NCBI GenBank assembly: GCA_000349905.1
Contig: KB722742.1
Location: forward strand, 984,354-1,048,353
Source of the DNA: Volvariella volvacea V23
Taxonomy: Eukaryota; Basidiomycota; Agaricomycetes; Agaricales; Pluteaceae
DNA: 64,000 nucleotides
Reading direction: 5' to 3'
In this document: piece after piece, positions 308-64,000 of the stretch
Layout: the number at the start of each line of letters is the position of its first letter
How positions within the stretch are numbered: the first letter of the stretch is position 1
Position numbers and translations under genes: made by a program
Notes under the pieces: model-generated
Databases searched by the model: none
Told to the model about the DNA's origin: nothing
Seen by the model: only the letters and a program-made list of their open reading frames with translations

Positions 308-3300
308 TCATCCATCAAATGTATCATTCATGATACCTCTTTCTACCTCGTCCCAATCGATGTTCCCACCACTTGCATAGACACTTTCATAAGATGAGAT
401 GCTGATTGCAGAGAAGAAGGGTACTAAATCTCGAATACTATCGATTTGTTTCAAGGCGTTGAGCATCGGTCTTCTCATTGGCCGTTGATTGGGCAACGCG
501 GGGGTTTGAGGTCCTAGGCTAACCGGATTATCCTCATGTGTGTCCTAAATCATGCTGAATTGACTTCCGAGGAATACGCCTGAAGTCGAAGTCACGTACC
601 ACCNNNNNNNNNNNNNNNNNNNNNNNNNNNNNNNNNNNNNNNNNNNNNNNNNNNNNNNNNNNNNNNNNNNNNNNNNNNNNNNNNNNNNNNNNNNNNNNNN
701 NNNACAGGTAAACTATTTGCGATCTCCGCTAGTTGATCCATCAAGGCCTCAGGGAACCACCCGTGCGGTCTATAGATCGCATCCACCGTGTCTGTAATAA
801 ACACCCATTGGTGTATTTGGAATTCTTCTGTTTGCAGCACCAGCAAGAGATCCAGACATTTACAACATGCCAGGATTAGTTGTAGATCTTCTGACCCGTC
901 CGCAGGCAGGTTGGTAATAACTTGCTCAAAAATACGATACTAGTGACCAGTGAGAACGTACAAACCACGTCAAGAGGGAGCCACTCACCAGTTCCGTAAA
1001 TAGGACGGGCCAGAAACTCGTAAGGTTGTGGGGTGAGAGGCGGCATAAGAGCACCCTGATGCATAGAAAGACCTCACTCTGAACTACGGGAGAGGAGACA
1101 TTTCGTAAGATGTCAACTAGTTTCTCCTGAATTGTGGGCAACTGGGTGAGAAAGTGATTCTTCTCTGCAGTGAATATCACATATGCGAGTCGTCGCACAT
1201 TCAACGACCTCAGAAGCATTTCATATTCCTTATTTGTAAATATGTTTGTGGAAGGAGCGGTAGCAATTTTTGCTGAAACCCAGGGATCCAGAATCAGTAT
1301 GGATGATGAGTATGGCCGTAGCTCTGGCCGACATTTGTAATATAACTTACCAAGCAGCTCGGGCATTGCTGTCTTATCCGCGTCAAAAAGGGTCTTGATG
1401 ATTGGTCTCCACTTGGTGGCGGCATCTGTACCACAATTAAAAAGTCTATTGTCGTTTAAAAGTTCCAGGACTGGGGGACGCCAGACTTTCAGCACGCCCA
1501 GAAGCCGGCTCATCTCATACAGAATAGCCAGTGCGTTCTCGTCGATATCCATAGGCCTAAAATACCAATAAGATGACGTGATACAAGAGAGTCACCTTCA
1601 CCCATTCCTACTTACCGTGCTTTGCCTTTCATGGCTGGGCCAATGATATAGTAAACTATGTTGCTACAGGCACTAGCAACCTTATCATTGTCCGTGAAAA
1701 ACCGTCGTAAATTAGGTATGCCTGTTGTGGCCAAGAATTGGTTAATCTGGGTGAAGCCCTAAGTACACACAGAGATTGTCCATGGGATCTGGGTTCACCT
1801 GAGTGATTAGGTCGACTTCGGTGTTAACTTTGACCGGTGTCTCGACTGTTGGAAGGGAAACAGTGCTCGCATCCATCTTTTCATCAATTTTCAGATCTAA
1901 GACGGGCATTAAAGTTCATGCCAAAGATGGTTTCATGAACAAACGTACCGCGGGGAGCTGGGGAGTCCCTCCCATTCGTTAATACGTCCTTTGGGCCACG
2001 ACGGAGCCAAGAGCTGGAGTCACTCGAGCGACCCACGAAAGCAACGCATGCATCTAACAATTTCCCCAAATTATCCTTAAAATGGCATAAGCATTTCCAA
2101 TTATCTATATTCCCAAGCGGGATGGACACACCTGCAGTTCCTTCTTGATACGCTTGTCCTCTAAAGCCGTTGTCTGGGTGACCTTTTCGGCTAACACTGC
2201 TAAACATCTGACAGCTATATCGTAAATTTGACGCCCTCCGATAGGAATGAACGAACCTCAGAGAAAAGAAGTTTTGCGTTCTGGTGTCCCTGGAGCTTCC
2301 AATAATATCCTTTACCAGTTGCAGGAAGCGACCCCAAACCTGCACTGCAAGAGGACCCTCGAGTCGTTGGAAGTATTGCTCCATGAAAGTGAATAGTACG
2401 ACATCAGAGCTGCAATATCACATGAGATATTTCAAGTGGCGCAGTTAAAATCCTTACAGATCTGGGTTAATAACTTGTCTTCTAGATTTCTCTGATACTC
2501 CAGTCATTCGGAATGAGATACTTTCACACATCATATGAACAGCATTTTGAGCGCTAGCCATCAAGAGGTCCACTAGTTCAAATGCCGCATTTACAGGCAC
2601 CGAAAAACCCTGCAAAGAGCTGAGGCGAGTATCAAATCTAGGACGAGATACACGCTTACCAGGTCCCTGTTCCACCAATCCACGATAGACTCGAAGACCT
2701 CCGCAGAATGAGCTCGGAAAAGGTGTTCCAAAACTCGACGAGCACGCAGACGAGTCCGACTATATATCAGCGATAATGAGTCATCCTTTGAGGACCGCTC
2801 TTCGGGATTCATCCATCCTAAGGTACTCCATATCAAATATAATACTTTTACGCCTTCGTGAAGTGTTCGGTATCCGGTGGACTTGATCTACAACCAAATC
2901 AGTTCAAACTGAACATTGGTTTGTCCTAAGCGTATACCACTCACCGTCAATTGTTCTTCAGGCTGTTGCTGGGGAGTATCAGCCCCAAACACACCAGAGA
3001 CGTACCCAAACAAACCGCTGCTCTCTGACACTGACTTTTCCAAGGTATTTGCATCATCGTCTGTTGTGCTGGTTTCCGCTAGACTATGAGTCAGGCCTAA
3101 CAATATCAATCTCTCCAACCCATTCAGCAACATCGTAAACTCCGCGTCGGTAACCCGGGACCGTACGTCCTGTATACTGCTAGGTGAAGAGTTGGACGTA
3201 TTATGCAGCTCCTCCAAGGCGAGTAAAAGCTGTCGATAAATGCATTCGCTAAGAGGGATGACGAGTGGCTGAAGGGCTGGCTGGAGCTGGGGCACAGTCA

Positions 3301-6300
3301 TAAGAACAAAATCAAGCCAGTGCTGAAGGACAGGGCGGTTGGACGGTAATGATATGCCGTCAACTAGCGTCTGAGTCAATAAAGGGTTGAGGGAGTACGT
3401 CCGAACGCCTTCAGCAGTCTCCCCATGGTGCAAGCTATCACTTCCGGCGTCTTGTTTGTTTGGGGCGTTCGCACGACTCATCGCTTCATAGGAAGTCATG
3501 ACAGAGATCAGGGAGTGGAGGAGGTGAAGAAGCTTGTTCTGGAGGTCCAATCGCTTCGTATGAACGCAGAAGAATAGTTTGGACACTACTATAGCCTCAA
3601 TAGCTTCGATTGAGACAATGTCAATCTCTCCCCGCGCAACAATCGTTTGCAGTAGATCGACCACTGTGGAATGTATCTGTGAATTCAAAGAGTTCATGGA
3701 TACTTGCCCTGCTTCGCTGGGCTCGGACCGTAAGAATCTGGTTGAAGATCAGGTAAACTTCAGGATCTCAAAAATAAGCAAGCTTACTTGAGAGAAAGTT
3801 CAATTAATACATCCAGGTATGTGGCGTCAGCATGAGCTAGTCCAACTGCATTCTCATTGAACGCCCCATAAAGCTAACAATTAAGTTACCACTCACTTGA
3901 GTCAACTCGCTGGTCCAGGCCTATGTGATGGGAACGCCGTATGTAGACACTCCTAATGGTCTTTGCAAAGGCTTGAGCCCCAAATTGTGCAACGCATTGC
4001 AATAACACAAGTAGATGATTCATATATCGTTGATCGAACGGCCGTTCGTACTCGTAGATTTGAAGTTCTCTACCACGAATTTTTGTGATGGCGTGCTTTC
4101 TTCGTACAGTTGGGTCTAACAAATCGAATAGAATTGGGTCAAGAACACTACGCCCACATCATCAGCGGTCCAGGAGGTAATATTGTAAATCAATGCTCGG
4201 TAACATACCGAGAAAATGCCTTTAGGCTACATCGCATCCACGTTTCCCCTATTCGACGAAGGTGCGGGTCTTCGCTCTTGAGGGTATCTAGAACTATCAT
4301 CATCGGGACTTTAAACTTAAACCCAGGTTGCAAATGATCCTCTATACCAAAAAGGGATTAAAATCGAGGCAAAAACCTCCGAGCGGACTTACCAGTCAAT
4401 CTCCAAAGCACACCAAACGCGTCAAATGCTCCTTGCAATCCTCGAGCATCGGGTCTTGTTAGGGATTGTGCCACGATGGACTCGACATATGCTTTCCCTT
4501 GAGTCACGTTCTCAATGGCCCAAATTAAATTAACCGCCCGGACATGATAAGCTGAGTATTCAGGACCAAGGTACTGCAGCAGCTTCTTAACCATTTTTGC
4601 AGCCATCCTTCTCTCCTCTTCAATATCTTCAGCCAAGATGACAACTTTTTCCTTTTCCTTCGTGTTAGATGCCGCAAGGACAGTGCCAAGCGTTGGTGTA
4701 GACAAGCCGGATGCACTCTCTTGAGTCTTCCGGTGTGCAGCAGTTGTCAATAAAGGAGGTTTGAGGCCACGAAGTTGATACAAAACCACTGAAAGCCCCA
4801 CTGCCCGGTCAACGATAGTGAAGCTGATCGACTAAGTAAGTTAATTTGAATAGAGCTACGAGAAAATAAATAAGGCTTAGGCTTCACCTCATTGTGCTCA
4901 GACTCAAAAGTGGCCAAAATGGCATGTGACCACGCTTTTGGGTTCCAGGAGACCTCGATTGCGGTTGAAGCCCCGAGTCTGCCAATTAGTCTGTCGGTGA
5001 GGAGTAGGACCTGGGCTAGTGCTTCTTTGGTCAGGCTACTTGGGGGGGTCACTGAGACGGAGGCGGGACTTGTAATTTGTGAGGCAAAATGTGTGCTTAA
5101 CCGAGTAAGGGTCTCAAACGACGAAGTAAATGGTACACTGGATGATCCCTCGGCAACAGGAGAAAATTGAGGTGTCAGCCCGTAGAACGTACAAGCGAAT
5201 TGGTAAGAATGTTGGTCGGCTCGAGCTTTCTGTATCTCCGAAACCACTTCTGGAGGATGCATTAGGGCACTATGGGGAATATGGCGCAGAATTTGTTCCT
5301 CCAAGTACAAGCACTCCAAGATAGAGGCAGAGACATGTGTATGAGGTTGCGATAAGAAATGAAGCTGTGGGTTACGTCAGGGTGAAGTCATAATAAGCCC
5401 GTAGAAACCTACATGCACAAGGTCCAGGCATCCACTAAAGATGACCGGTAGGTGCAATGTTTGTATATCCTCATCTTGGGCGAAGTTTTGGAGGATGAAA
5501 TTTACCATTCGCATGGCCTAGCAATTCCATAAAAAACAAACACTCCAAGTGGGTGGGATAGCGTACCTCAAAACTAGACCCATTGCTTAATGTTTCGTTG
5601 AATAATGCCGCTAAGATGTGCTTCCAAAGGATTTGTGGTTCCACTGCCTCGTATAATGTACTCGCTGTCATCATGACCTTGAGAGTATAGTCAATAACGA
5701 GGATCGACGATCAGATGAAAGTGAAACGAACATCGTCCCGACTATCCGGGCGATTTTCCACCAGGTATTTCACAGCTTTGAATGCATCGAGAACCAAGGC
5801 ATCGGTTAGCGGCCCTCCAATCTCCCACTTATCCAACAAGGATATGAAGATTTTGAATGGTCGTGATTCCGAGTACTCCCCAGAAGGTGAAACCATCTCG
5901 TCCTAGTATCGGCATAGTTAGGCGAAACGTACATATATGCCGAATCAATCCAACACACCACTCACTTTCAGTGTTCCCTTCAACAGACCCAGAGCGTGCT
6001 CTCTGAAATATGCTACCTGTACTTCGCTCTTATCCTCCGGCCCCAGTAGCCAAGTGTACAACCTCCTGTTAAGGGATAAGTCCCTTCTCAAAACTACACT
6101 GGTTGCGGCTCTCATTATGATTGCCCGATCCTCCGCTTGGGCCCGTTGTATGGCCACACTATCGACTCGTATTGATTGTAACAGTAGGTCTAATGCTCCT
6201 CGTCTCACCAGCAGGTTTTCATCCTCTAGAGCAGCAGCAAAAGCGCGAATCATTAACCCAATATCATCTCCAACAACAGCGGCGATATCTACACAGCAAT

Positions 6301-57400: not shown

Positions 57401-60132
57401 TTGCTGGTTCCTTGACATTGAGATGATACATGATCTGATTCTGCATGATGGGGGAGGACGTAACTTGTGGGGCATGCTTCCGGATTTCCTCGAGCAATTC
57501 TGCTGCCGTGCGATCGTAGGATTTCTCCATGTCATTGGATGAGGCGTGAAATGAGACTTGGACAGAGTAACCTGTGCCGAGGTCGCGTTTCAAAGCTACG
57601 GGGGAGCCCTCGGCCAGCAGCTTTCCTGGGGAGGCGAGAATGGCAATGTGATCTGCGAGGAGATCTGCCTCATCCAAGAACTATGTAATACGATACTGCT
57701 TAACCAAGGTCATGCACAGCGTGAAATGGCTCACATGCGTAGTGAATATAATTGTTCTGTCCTCACGGAAGGTTGTTAACGTCCTCCACAAAGCGCGTCG
57801 GCTCAGGGGGTCAACTCCCGATGTGCATTCATCCACAAGCACGACTAAATCTATCTTAGAGTACTTCTATTCAGCGATGGAGTGCACTCACCCTTTGAAC
57901 CACCAAGCAGCCCTATGGCAAGCTGTAGTTTCCGTTTCTGGCCTCCCGACATTGTATTCGCGTTGGAGTTAATCTTCAGCCTCAGGTCGCAATCTCGCAG
58001 GAGCTGTTCTAAATCCTCGTCTGCCTTTGAGTTAGGCGACCATTTTACAGCACGCCAGACCTTCAGCGTTTGTAAGCAGGTCAATTCAGTGAAGAGGACG
58101 TTCTTCTGCGGAACGATACCGAGAGTTCCGCGTGGGGGTCGTGTGACTCCGCCTTCGTAGACTACTGATCCTGAAGTCTGGGTAGACAACCCTCCCAAAA
58201 TTGATAGAGTGGTGGATTTTCCAGCTCTGGAATGCATGTTCGGGTCAGTGTATAATAGAACCTTAGTATTACTCACCCGTTTGACCCTAAGAGCACGTAG
58301 ATACCGTTCTTTGGCACGTCTATACTGAGATCTCCAACAGCAGTGAAGGAGTCCTTGCTGGGCCAAAAAACAGAAGACTTGAAGGTCTTATTTAAATGAC
58401 GAATAGAGATAGCGACACCACTGGGAATATTGTGGATGACTTTCTTGGCCTTTTTGAAGGGTATCCAGGAGCTTCCCGCCGCTGGGGCATCGTATAGAGC
58501 TTGCTCGAGTACAATAGCAAGGTAAGGCCAGACAAAAATAGCGATCTAGTGGTTGCACTGTCAGGAGGGCTGGAAAGAATTTGAGCTTGGCAACTTACAA
58601 TGACAGCAACAATAAGAGGCAATATCCTCAGTCCTTTGTCCGGATCCGGTTCAAGCGCGTTGGTCGGAATGACGTTGTACTCAAAACCGCATACAGCCTT
58701 GATAGCAAAAATATAAAATGACGGAGGGAAGATTATCGACATTATCACCGCGACGCCATTAGATGGATTCGATATGATATGCGCAACCACAGCGAAGAGT
58801 AAGCAGATGAATGTGGTCACAACGGCAGCTAATTGCGGGCTCTTGCCAAATGGGGAGGTCAGGAATAATGACCAACTCGTCAATGACCATCCTGTGAGTA
58901 GGTGAATAACAAGTATCAGTCCTGCGTTGGTGCCGCTAAAAATCTTGGCGCGCCAAATGAAAGAGACGACGATCCAAGCAGGGAGATAAGCTAGTGAAAG
59001 GCTCAAATGCCAAGAGCTAATAGTAACGAGATCAAACAATCAGTAGTGATTTGTCAAATAGCAGGCTCTACTTGCATCATGCGAGCTGAATCGAGGAGGC
59101 CCATGGCCTTCATGTGCGGCGTGATGAGCAGGGCTCTCTCTGTAGCTACAGTCCCAGGAAGATGATACGCGATACCGATATAGGCGACAAAACTGAAGAG
59201 AGATCAGTCCAACCAGGGGTAATCTGGGGAGCTACGTACAGTGCGAGGACGACAATATCGCGGATCGTTTTAATCCAGCCTAACGAGGTCTCAATAAAGG
59301 AAAAGACAGAAAATAATGCAATACACACTTCTTCTGTCGTCGAGTTCATATTCCTCTTGAGTCATTTGAGTGTATGGCCATTGCTGGGGGGTCGACGGGG
59401 TGGCCCCGGCCTTGAGCTCGATGATTGCCTATAGGAGCCAATCTTTGTTAGTAGATATTAGGTGCAGTGACGAGTGGACCTGCCTGGTCTATTGCCCATT
59501 GTAGAGGCAATAAAGTGGTTTCACGGAGACTGGAATGCCCGGTGACATCCACAAACAAGTTATTGGCGTCTCCACGAATTCTATACCTGATCGGCGCCGA
59601 GCCACTGGCCGGGATGTCGTAAAACTCGATTCCAGCGAAACATTCGGAGCGGAGGTTAAAATTCTGCGGGCACTCTGCCCCGAGCTCGTCGGGCGAATCA
59701 ACTTGTCGCACCAAGTTCAATTGGTCCGGCGAAAAGGATGAAGTAAGGCGAGTCATGATCTCGCTAGGAGAGGGAGAGCTGTTTCCATCTGTAGCATCTA
59801 CCCATATGAGCTTGGTATCGTGGATTTGGTGATGGAGGTCATAAATTGGGATGGGGTCGCCAATTCCAAACTAGAGCAGATAAATAAGCATGGCGAGCGC
59901 GGAAGTTAGGGACGCAATTTACATTACTGGGTTTCGTCAATAGTGAAGGAGAGATTGCTATGAAAATACCATAAGCTATTGGAAGTATGAGACAGCGAAG
60001 GAGATTAAGCTAAATTTCTGGTAAGTGGGATTCATGACGATGAAGGCCGATACGTACGATAGGGTGTTTAGAAAGTACGATCCAGTTCTTCACAAAAAGG
60101 GCTTTAAATTGAATCCAAAAAAGCCCTTTCAT
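54469..60132 (-). CDS. ABCA-type full ABC transporter
   Basis: Large two-halved transporter of the ABCA class, which moves lipids in animals; fungal members are few and little studied. The ATG at 60130-60132 opens [20 protein letters not shown], the short cytosolic start and first helix. A luminal loop (59448-59756) precedes the first membrane block (58392-59039). NBD1 has a split Walker A (GSNG-AGKST, exon join near 58230), [18 protein letters not shown] and [10 protein letters not shown], with a following [20 protein letters not shown] second membrane half spans 55800-57200, starting with [23 protein letters not shown]2 has [54 protein letters not shown] and a TTHSMEEA H-loop restored by an intron near 54970. 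It ends RSFWSWLK at 54469. About 20 introns. Both NBDs look catalytically complete. Confidence 0.88.
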
Positions 60133-60594: not shown

Positions 60595-63264
60595 ATGCTT
60601 CATTCAGAACATCGCTCAAAGGCAAAATCCACCTCTGTTCACCTTATCCTAGATATGGTTGTGACGTTGCAGTCTGCTCGGGGCATAATTGGTCTCGTTG
60701 GATCGACGGTCGATGAATTCGCACACGAAGGGCTGCGATCGGCCGCCCCACATTTCCCTTCCCCAATTTCGTTCCAACCTCCCTACCACATTACCCTTTT
60801 CTCAAAGGAAGAATTGAAACAGATATCCATGGAGAAAATGCGGTCGTTGGATGCCGACACGCGGTTCGTTCATGCCATCGGAGTTGGAGGACATCACAAA
60901 CGCGGTGTGTACTTTGTTGTGATTATATGGGCAGCCGGCCAAACTATCCGGAAGCAATTTGGTTTACCTCCGAAGGATTTCCACATAACGCTTTCTACGC
61001 AGGATGATCACAACATTAGCAAAGGAATAGATTCTTTGCTGCCGGGTCAATTTCCCCTCTCACCAAGTGCAGACCTACTTGATCACCTCGCATATACGCT
61101 TTTTATTGCTGGTCACTATGGCGAGGCACAGCAATATTCAAAAGACCTAATTCTCCAGGTACCCGATTCACATCGTGGATTTCTACGTATTGCCGATGCT
61201 GCATTATCCGAGGGAAAGTTCAAGTTGGCTATGCTTGCGTATGGATGCGCACACGAACGTGCTGATGAAGAAAGGGTGAAGAATTATGCGCTCAGGAAAT
61301 TAATTATCTGCTCGAAACAGACTGAATGGGGTGTCGTTTCTTTGGAGCACGAGACACATCAGGTTCCAGCAGAGATAGGAAAATTCCTCCTGAAGCCTTG
61401 GTCCGCTGACCTGCGCACCGCCATTACGGATGCTAACATAACGCCCACACTCCAGCTCGAACCCCGAGAGTCGCTCTATATACCGCACTGGGCTCTAGGT
61501 TCCTCCACTCCTACTTGGTATAAGCTTCCCCGGTTCTTTCGCTGGCTAATCCCCTATCATATAGCAATCATGTCTACACCTCGTCGGGAGGAAGACATCG
61601 ATGCCCTCGCCTCTTCGGCCTTAGGAATTAGCCATATTCTGACGTTAACTGAAGAAACACCGCTTCCCGCAGCATGGTTCCTTTCCCGACCTGTCACTAA
61701 TACATTCCTACCAATCGCCAACTACCACGCTCCATCCATTGAACAAGTGGACCTTGTGATGCGGTTGATAAGCAATCACAATAATGCCCCAATGCTCATA
61801 CATTGTGGTGGGGGGAAAGGACGCGCCGGAACCGTAGCCGCATGCTACCTGTCAGCCTTTGGTTTCAGCAGACCGAGGTATGATCAAGAGCGACCCGAAT
61901 TGTCTGCAGCCGAGGCCATTTCAACACTTCGTCACCTACGACCTGGATCTATTGAGACCTCACAGCAAGAAGACTTCGTTTCAAAGTGGTGTAGCACAAT
62001 ATGGAAACGCCAGTCTGTCTATCCGTCCTTGCCGTCGGAGCCTGCGCCTTGTCCCCTGGAAATAGAAGGAACGCTAGGGAAGGAGTACGATTTATTGGTA
62101 CTGGTTGGATTGCCCGGGTCGGGGAAGTCATGGTTCTCTAAAGCGCTCTTGGCGCGGAACCAAAGTGGATGGCAGAGGATTTCACAGGACGATTCAGGAA
62201 GCAGGGCATTCTGCGAAACCGAGATCGGGAGGGCCAGAGGGCGGGTCTTACTGGATAGGTGTAATACGGCCGCAACCGATCGGAAATACTGGTTAGACCT
62301 TGCCTCGAACTGGTGCAAGCACCCCATATGCGTGTGGTTCGACTATGATGTGGAGCTTTGTACCTCCCGTGCCCAGATGCGTCCTGGCCACCCCACATTA
62401 CCGCCCGGAAGTCGAGTACGGAATGCCATAGACCAAATGCAAAAAACGTTCTCTAGACCGCAGCTCACTGAAGGCTTTGACGCTATAGCCATCGTCAAGT
62501 CTTTCGCCGCTGCGCAGGAGCTGGTTGGGCTACTGTCTCCTCCCGTTACGATTTACAAATTCCCCAGGACCCCACACCTCATTAATCTTGGTGCTGTGAG
62601 CGAAGACGACATTATAGCGGACAGCCTCAGTCTTCTAAATCTTGGAAGCGAAGGTGCCAATATCGTCATTACTGAAAAGGTTGACGGCGCCAACATGGGG
62701 TTCTCCCTTTCCTCCGACCGCTCCAACATCATCGTCCAGAATCGATCTCACTATGTCAACTCGTCATCTCACGAACAGTTCAAGAAGTTAGGTCAATGGG
62801 TCGACCAACATAGAGCGGACTTATACCACGTCCTGGATCGCGATCCTTATTTCGCGGAAAGGTACATCCTATTCGGGGAGTGGATGTTCGCGACGCATTC
62901 AATCCCGTATATGACACTACCAGACAGGTTTTTGGCATTTGACCTCTACGACAGGACTAGGGATGTTTGGGCAGATAGACGAACGTTAGAGCGGCTGTTG
63001 AAGGGCACAGGAATACAACTAGTACCCGTAATACAGGAGGGCAGTGCGATACCGAGCGAAGCGGAACTCAAGAGTCTTGTCCAAGGACAGTCGCGATTCT
63101 GGGAGGGGCGGATCGAAGGGGCTTATGTCAAGGTAGAAAAGGGCGGGTTTGTAATTTCGCGAGGTAAGGTGGTTAGAGGGGATTTCATTGCTGGAAATGA
63201 ACACTGGACAAGAGGAAAGCTAAGAGTCAATGGGTTGGCAAGAGAGGAGGAACCTACCACCTAA
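60595..63264 (+). CDS. Multidomain RNA-repair protein: 2H-DUSP-PNK-RNA ligase
   Basis: A single uninterrupted ORF of 889 codons, unusual in this intron-rich region. An N-terminal 2H phosphoesterase-like domain (about 20-150) has HIT motifs at H65 and H130 spaced as in LigT/CPDase folds, predicted to open 2',3'-cyclic phosphates. A helical TPR-like segment (about 155-250) has GHYGEAQQYSKDLILQVPDS. A DUSP23-like cysteine phosphatase (about 310-475) has HCGGGKGRAG at 403-412 and RPGSIETSQQEDF. A P-loop kinase (about 495-650) has GLPGSGKS at 505-512, SQDDSGSR at 530-537 and DRCNTAATDRKYW at 554-566, like polynucleotide kinases. An RNA ligase core (about 660-880) has KVDG with K695 as the adenylated lysine, FGEW at 760-763 and EGAYVKVEKG at 841-850. 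This would heal and seal RNA ends in one chain. All roles are inferred from motifs. The start could be M21 (60655), which still leaves the 2H domain whole. Confidence 0.85.
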   Translation: MLHSEHRSKAKSTSVHLILDMVVTLQSARGIIGLVGSTVDEFAHEGLRSAAPHFPSPISFQPPYHITLFSKEELKQISMEKMRSLDADTRFVHAIGVGGHHKRGVYFVVIIWAAGQTIRKQFGLPPKDFHITLSTQDDHNISKGIDSLLPGQFPLSPSADLLDHLAYTLFIAGHYGEAQQYSKDLILQVPDSHRGFLRIADAALSEGKFKLAMLAYGCAHERADEERVKNYALRKLIICSKQTEWGVVSLEHETHQVPAEIGKFLLKPWSADLRTAITDANITPTLQLEPRESLYIPHWALGSSTPTWYKLPRFFRWLIPYHIAIMSTPRREEDIDALASSALGISHILTLTEETPLPAAWFLSRPVTNTFLPIANYHAPSIEQVDLVMRLISNHNNAPMLIHCGGGKGRAGTVAACYLSAFGFSRPRYDQERPELSAAEAISTLRHLRPGSIETSQQEDFVSKWCSTIWKRQSVYPSLPSEPAPCPLEIEGTLGKEYDLLVLVGLPGSGKSWFSKALLARNQSGWQRISQDDSGSRAFCETEIGRARGRVLLDRCNTAATDRKYWLDLASNWCKHPICVWFDYDVELCTSRAQMRPGHPTLPPGSRVRNAIDQMQKTFSRPQLTEGFDAIAIVKSFAAAQELVGLLSPPVTIYKFPRTPHLINLGAVSEDDIIADSLSLLNLGSEGANIVITEKVDGANMGFSLSSDRSNIIVQNRSHYVNSSSHEQFKKLGQWVDQHRADLYHVLDRDPYFAERYILFGEWMFATHSIPYMTLPDRFLAFDLYDRTRDVWADRRTLERLLKGTGIQLVPVIQEGSAIPSEAELKSLVQGQSRFWEGRIEGAYVKVEKGGFVISRGKVVRGDFIAGNEHWTRGKLRVNGLAREEEPTT

Positions 63265-64000
<736 letters not shown>

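Follow-up and report, generated by a model that had tools for sequence, protein, structure and literature searches.

A single uninterrupted gene of the mushroom Volvariella volvacea very probably encodes an RNA end-healing and sealing enzyme, in which a 2H phosphoesterase, TPR-like helices, a DUSP23-like cysteine phosphatase, a polynucleotide kinase and an RNA ligase follow one another in one chain. Judging from aligned relatives, its phosphatase is non-canonical, the usual catalytic acid having been lost in nearly every relative checked. The gene (60595-63264, plus strand; 889 codons, no internal stop) lies in the window, the whole 64,000-nucleotide stretch of DNA that was analysed, which comes from a 35.4 Mb assembly of 54 contigs. 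Its product shares 99% identity with an entry for the agaric mushroom Volvariella volvacea WC 439, 'hypothetical protein AX16_004094', and is the Volvariella member of a fungal family whose domain order annotators already know: it scores 76 bits against the Pfam model 2H-SAK (PF22547) and 193.8 bits against PTP-SAK (PF22784), each with a cut-off of 27. 'SAK' in these names stands for 'Swiss Army Knife', and the two models describe two domains of the chain.

A preliminary description of this DNA had read the same five regions, in the same order, from the letters of the frame, and Pfam and motifs bear this out, as do structure comparisons for the TPR-like helices, phosphatase, kinase and ligase, the N-terminus matching 2H-SAK and the C-terminus the PF09414 ligase family, neither outside the superfamily that had been claimed. 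The suggestion that the order looked new does not hold, since Pfam models for SAK exist and the chain is conserved in many mushrooms. Its further remark, that it knew of no characterised enzyme with this order, fared better: our literature search, with most subscription journals outside its reach, found no experimental or biochemical study of the protein, although the architecture itself has been named. Taken as a whole, the earlier interpretation is partly supported. The features discussed below are as follows; conservation counts refer to 133 rows (the window protein and 132 database proteins) or to a narrower alignment of 121 rows.

60595-63264 (+): SAK open reading frame, 889 aa, a single open frame including the stop
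60685-61011 (+): 2H-SAK phosphoesterase, residues 31-139 (PF22547, E 4e-21)
60787-60795 (+): first HxT motif, H65-I-T67
60982-60990 (+): second HxT motif, H130-I-T132
61069-61314 (+): TPR-like paired helices, residues 159-240, from AF2 models, with TPR domains among the best aligned chains
61528-61980 (+): PTP-SAK cysteine phosphatase, residues 312-462
61720-61722 (+): Asn376, at the aligned position of the DUSP23 general acid Asp65
61801-61833 (+): P-loop HCGGGKGRAGT, with C404, K408, R410 and A411
61954-61956 (+): Glu454, at the aligned position of VHZ Glu134 and ShufPTP Glu132 (Q-loop)
62077-62541 (+): P-loop polynucleotide kinase, residues 495-649
62107-62130 (+): Walker A motif GLPGSGKS, with K511 in 133/133 rows
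62542-63261 (+): RNA ligase (nucleotidyltransferase), residues 650-889 (PF09414, E 2.8e-33; NgrRnl profile and Foldseek matches)
62677-62679 (+): Lys695, the expected adenylylated lysine of EKVDGAN, in 133/133 rows

All four enzyme domains are supported by Pfam and also by fold or sequence against solved structures. Relatives numbered 440 at E <= 0.001, and most of the 120 listed carry the same Pfam set; a second search, from a Jaapia protein, gave 402 relatives, again with the same domain set in most of the 120 listed. By these comparisons many mushrooms share the full chain, and its conservation is uneven: averaged over columns, the commonest residue has a frequency of 0.57 in the 2H domain, 0.59 in the TPR region, 0.79 in the phosphatase, 0.75 in the kinase and 0.73 in the ligase. 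Pfam E-values and conservation rule out a chance or artefactual frame, and two minus-strand frames inside the gene (62019-62327 and 62138-62398) were taken as shadow frames. The real start is probably the ATG at 60655 (869 aa), since the structure model has low confidence over the first 20 residues, and residues 4-18 face gaps in 111-118 of the 121 rows. An adenosine kinase gene (63749-64000, plus strand; first exon E 1.4e-9 against adenosine kinases) begins 485 bases past the SAK stop on the same strand. The deposited gene models of Mycena maculata (P0046) and Cytidiella melzeri (P0103) run from SAK into a PfkB domain and are best explained as fused neighbour genes, so this gene order is probably old. 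On the other side, pieces of an ABC transporter gene lie at 57851-59039 on the minus strand (ABC_tran E 2.1e-13; an ABC2_membrane_3 match fell below the cut-off), and a PADLOC search for a defence system gave no match at E up to 1.

The phosphatase shows the fold and HCx5R motif of the DUSP23/VHZ type, with DUSP23/VHZ as its closest solved relative, and residue equivalences were taken from alignments to 4erc (DUSP23), 9e9l (ShufPTP), 5z59 (TkPTP) and 25xa. Whereas DUSP23/VHZ, the archaeal TkPTP and ShufPTP have the Asp65-type WPD/IPD-loop acid and a Thr or Ser after the P-loop Arg, the SAK domain has Asn and Ala: the Asn376 column holds Asn in 131 of 133 rows, Asp in one (P0010) and a gap in one (P0018), and Ala411 is found in 133/133. 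Cys404, Lys408, Arg410 and the Q-loop Glu454 are each present in 133/133. Searching with the phosphatase alone returned 28 hits (17 with Asn and Ala, three with Asp and Ser/Thr, none mixed, eight for which the two sites could not both be read), and because the two changes occur together, the pair appears to mark the SAK phosphatase. Two such hits have His in the Glu454 column (P0130) or Leu in the Cys404 column (P0146), both in short sequences that end or align poorly there. Phosphatase genes matching at 36-37% over about 101 SAK phosphatase residues also occur in four of 50,697 phage records (Vibrio phages, H1-H4), in a translated search with SAK residues 310-649 as query.

Loss of the Asp need not mean loss of function. 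According to one study, Glu134 is the primary general acid in VHZ and Asp65 is subservient (PMC9038691). A JACS Au paper reports that D63N ShufPTP keeps activity (kcat 0.12 vs 8.6 s-1; 0.01 vs 4.7 s-1 for D63N TkPTP), with simulations indicating Glu132 as a back-up acid, a role unconfirmed by double mutants, which were inactive and poorly expressed (PMC12848742). Since Glu134 is primary in VHZ and D63N ShufPTP is active, an Asn-bearing phosphatase of this kind can still work, and SAK looks, from its conserved residues, like a family in which the back-up Glu became the sole acid.

Walker A, QDD and DRCN....R motifs and a kinase fold identify a kinase of the PNKP/Trl1 type, in agreement with the earlier reading, and D532, like K511, is present in 133/133 rows. 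Its best sequence matches are Mucorales kinases solved with GDP, 9d8a (Rhizopus azygosporus) and 9drz (Lichtheimia corymbifera), at about 31% identity over the kinase; these differ in being separate short chains of 172 and about 162 residues, whereas the SAK kinase is fused, and we found no paper on them. The ligase core proposed earlier is likewise complete (KxDG, NRS, GEW, EGxYxK and the motif V Lys), with R717, E762 and K858, like K695, in 133/133 rows and K846 in 132/133. PF09414 has one match in the genome, the SAK gene. A single-sequence search found no solved structure matching the ligase, and a profile built from 13 ligases (taken from the window, from viral contigs and from a single bacterial contig) matched Naegleria gruberi NgrRnl (E 7.8e-6, residues 157-324) and archaeal ligases. 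Foldseek also pairs the SAK ligase with NgrRnl (E 2.1e-7) through a shared nucleotidyltransferase core, but the SAK ligase, about 240 aa directly after the kinase, has no counterpart of the first ~150 residues of NgrRnl and no NgrRnl-type N-terminal OB domain before the nucleotidyltransferase.

Relatives of the ligase in viral contigs stand alone (235 aa in L026, 295 aa in L036), with 28-35% identity in the best rows. By labels read from sequence, the L036 ligase lies near a kinase gene with a DxDG-type phosphatase-like half, and frames near other ligase relatives (L075, L015) pair an HD-like stretch with a P-loop. In the Proteobacteria MAG contig L015, a SAK-like ligase and then, by eye, an HD-type/P-loop frame (ORFs 1095-2381 and 2378-3520) resemble a bacterial RNA repair pair. 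SAK therefore shares its ligase module with phage and bacterial repair genes. The idea that the entire chain came from a phage or giant virus was rejected: viral matches (80 kept of 90 loci) are confined to residues 491-888, with none over the phosphatase or 2H domain, and the 11 prokaryote loci match only residues 590-879, in scans that used two short patterns only and that a distant fusion could escape.

The 2H domain behaves differently. Both HxT motifs noted in the preliminary description are present in the window protein, and 100 of the 121 family rows retain the two HxT/S motifs; the pair fails in 21/121 when all rows are counted, or 22/133 in the wider set, which adds the partial P0156. 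With P0018 (gap at the acid site) and P0081 (without the 2H region) left out, 19 rows have lost one or both motifs, which needs 11 changes, at least 10 of them forced by well supported branches, on a quick, midpoint-rooted tree with 30 of 118 inner branches open. A single clade of 18 rows, with Mycena, Roridomyces and Favolaschia among its named members, accounts for eleven of the 19. The Mycena chlorophos protein (P0111) is one of the relatives with a broken 2H site. Most of these losses look like substitutions rather than gene-model errors, since flanking residues are kept (for example, PYCVSLL for PYHITLL). While the 2H motifs break, the phosphatase sites, Glu454 and the kinase hold in 121/121 rows and the ligase in 120/121. 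The TPR-like segment next to this domain, also noted in the earlier description, appears as paired helices in a confident N-terminal model, and TPR chains fill its structure match lists.

The most likely reading of these observations is a complete repair scheme, to which we give a probability of about 0.5. The 2H domain would open a 2',3'-cyclic phosphate, leaving a monophosphate at the 2' (or 3') position, which the cysteine phosphatase would strip through Cys404 and Arg410; with Asn in place of the usual Asp, the Q-loop Glu454 would be its sole acid/base. The kinase would then phosphorylate the 5'-OH end, and the ligase, via Lys695-AMP, would join the 3'-OH and 5'-phosphate. The TPR helices may dock a partner or an RNA-protein substrate, and the biological role would be repair of nuclease-cut tRNA or other RNA bearing 2',3'-cyclic phosphate and 5'-OH ends. 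The domain identities, conserved catalytic residues and co-existence with Trl1- and Tpt1-like genes are observed; from these we infer every chemical step, substrate, order and role. A ligase of the Rnl2/NgrRnl kind would need the 2'-phosphate removed. The scheme would explain why a phosphatase is fused here, since 2H-type healing leaves a 2'-phosphate: healing of the yeast and plant type does so, and ligation there typically depends on it, whereas T4 Pnkp leaves a cis-diol (PMC3400036).

Against the full scheme stands the repeated decay of the 2H domain (19/121 rows, at least 10 forced changes) beside a phosphatase that is never broken. If the phosphatase acted solely on the 2H product, joint decay would be expected, unless another cyclic phosphodiesterase substitutes. 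With neither the WPD-type Asp nor the P-loop Thr/Ser, the enzyme would also be expected to act slowly on poor leaving groups, among them ribose 2'/3' monoesters. A tentative reading, which we consider possible rather than probable, is that nature has here made a one-acid cysteine phosphatase for RNA ends: with Asn and Ala fixed, the SAK domain would depend entirely on the Q-loop Glu, a back-up in archaeal and human kin, and its substrate would be other or wider than the 2H product. Such a substrate would explain the repeated retirement of the 2H site while phosphatase, kinase and ligase hold.

Alternatively, the phosphatase may trim 5'-ppp or 5'-pp to 5'-p for the ligase, in the manner of the RNA 5'-end tri/diphosphatases MCE1 and PIR1/DUSP11, with the 2H domain and kinase serving other end kinds, so that the protein accepts several end types. 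Phosphatases lacking the WPD acid include MCE1, baculovirus RNA 5'-phosphatase, DUSP11/PIR1 and Siw14, and a PP-InsP phosphatase of this acid-less sort works with no residue as general acid (PMC9038691); since acid-less enzymes thus include RNA triphosphatases and inositol pyrophosphate phosphatases, a substrate of the tri/diphosphatase type is a genuine rival. In SAK, too, the Asp is missing, and the P-loop carries an invariant Lys408, comparable to the Lys in the AtPFA-DSP1 P-loop, and such a substrate would explain why the phosphatase is retained while the 2H domain decays. However, the domain is closest to DUSP23/VHZ in both sequence and fold, and Glu454, whose equivalent is the working acid in VHZ, is invariant; no RNA triphosphatase appears among the 50 matches listed, which proves little. 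We regard this alternative as unlikely, though worth serious consideration.

Less probable again is a slow or trapped phosphatase that is in effect a sensor, Cys404 taking up or binding the end phosphate and keeping the broken end at the disposal of the kinase and ligase, or passing the phosphate to another hydroxyl. PRL phosphatases have Ala after the P-loop Arg and a long-lived phosphocysteine, and VHZ transfers phosphate to alcohols; the joint fixation of Asn for Asp and Ala for Thr/Ser in SAK would fit such behavior. A pure binding domain, however, would not need Cys404, Arg410 and Glu454, all invariant. Finally, SAK is very unlikely to duplicate Trl1 as a second splicing ligase for tRNA or mRNA, because, although it shares the three activities of Trl1 (CPDase-like, kinase and ligase) and adds a phosphatase that could replace Tpt1, Trl1- and Tpt1-like genes occur in the same genome and its ligase family differs (PF09414, with PF09511 not among the Pfam matches).

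The Trl1-like gene lies on contig C26 (ligase 464881-465776, kinase 464017-464472, CPD 463195-463917) and Tpt1-like matches lie on C20, some of these matches crossing in-frame stops that were taken as introns; an Ire1-type RNase domain is also present elsewhere in the genome. With these genes in place, tRNA and HAC1-type splicing would not need SAK, and RNA repair is the likelier role. A second tRNA_lig_CPD domain (178 residues, E 3.8e-19; L003/L004, C26) lies some 3 kb away from the CPD domain that belongs to the Trl1-like gene. Fungi are usually said to rely on Trl1, and pieces of an RtcB-like gene lie on C3 (1018249-1027314; L010-L012), with a 134-residue exon at E 1.3e-16 in Pfam that matches, among solved structures, only the bacterial RtcB TTHA1785. 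The SAK gene is one 2.67 kb open frame, whereas matches to the Tpt1-, Ire1- and RtcB-like genes of this genome are split into several pieces.

Many mushroom genera appear to carry all the tools for RNA repair in a single protein, alongside the tRNA splicing ligase. The fixed Asp-to-Asn and Thr/Ser-to-Ala changes offer a clean test of an acid-less cysteine phosphatase on RNA ends, and the repeated 2H losses supply natural variants for comparison. The one-acid reading, if true, would add a new type of chemistry to the healing of RNA ends by single-chain repair enzymes. Should the activities prove real, RNA with cyclic-phosphate and 5'-OH ends could be mended with this protein as a one-tube reagent. 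An already-named architecture thereby gains a new puzzle, a non-canonical phosphatase beside a disposable 2H domain.

Among known systems, fungal Trl1 (ligase-kinase-CPD, acting on 2',3'-cyclic phosphate and 5'-OH ends) resembles SAK in combining a 2H-superfamily phosphoesterase, a P-loop kinase and a ligase in a single chain. SAK differs in its order (2H-phosphatase-kinase-ligase), its additional cysteine phosphatase, a PF09414 rather than PF09511 ligase and another 2H family; neither PF09511 nor PF08302 is among its 15 Pfam matches. T4-type Pnkp with Rnl2 and the bacterial HD-Pnk operons heal both ends and then seal, with DxD or HD phosphatases in separate proteins, whereas here a 2H domain and a cysteine phosphatase share one chain. 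The SAK naming reportedly stems from Burroughs & Aravind 2016. The table of a phage paper also names a HAD domain of 'Swiss Army Knife RNA repair proteins' (PMC7765460). Pfam has a SAK model of this kind as well (HAD_SAK_1, PF10307), for which the Volvariella genome gave no match in a search whose control likewise matched nowhere; the Volvariella protein carries the other two SAK-named domains in one chain with a kinase and a ligase.
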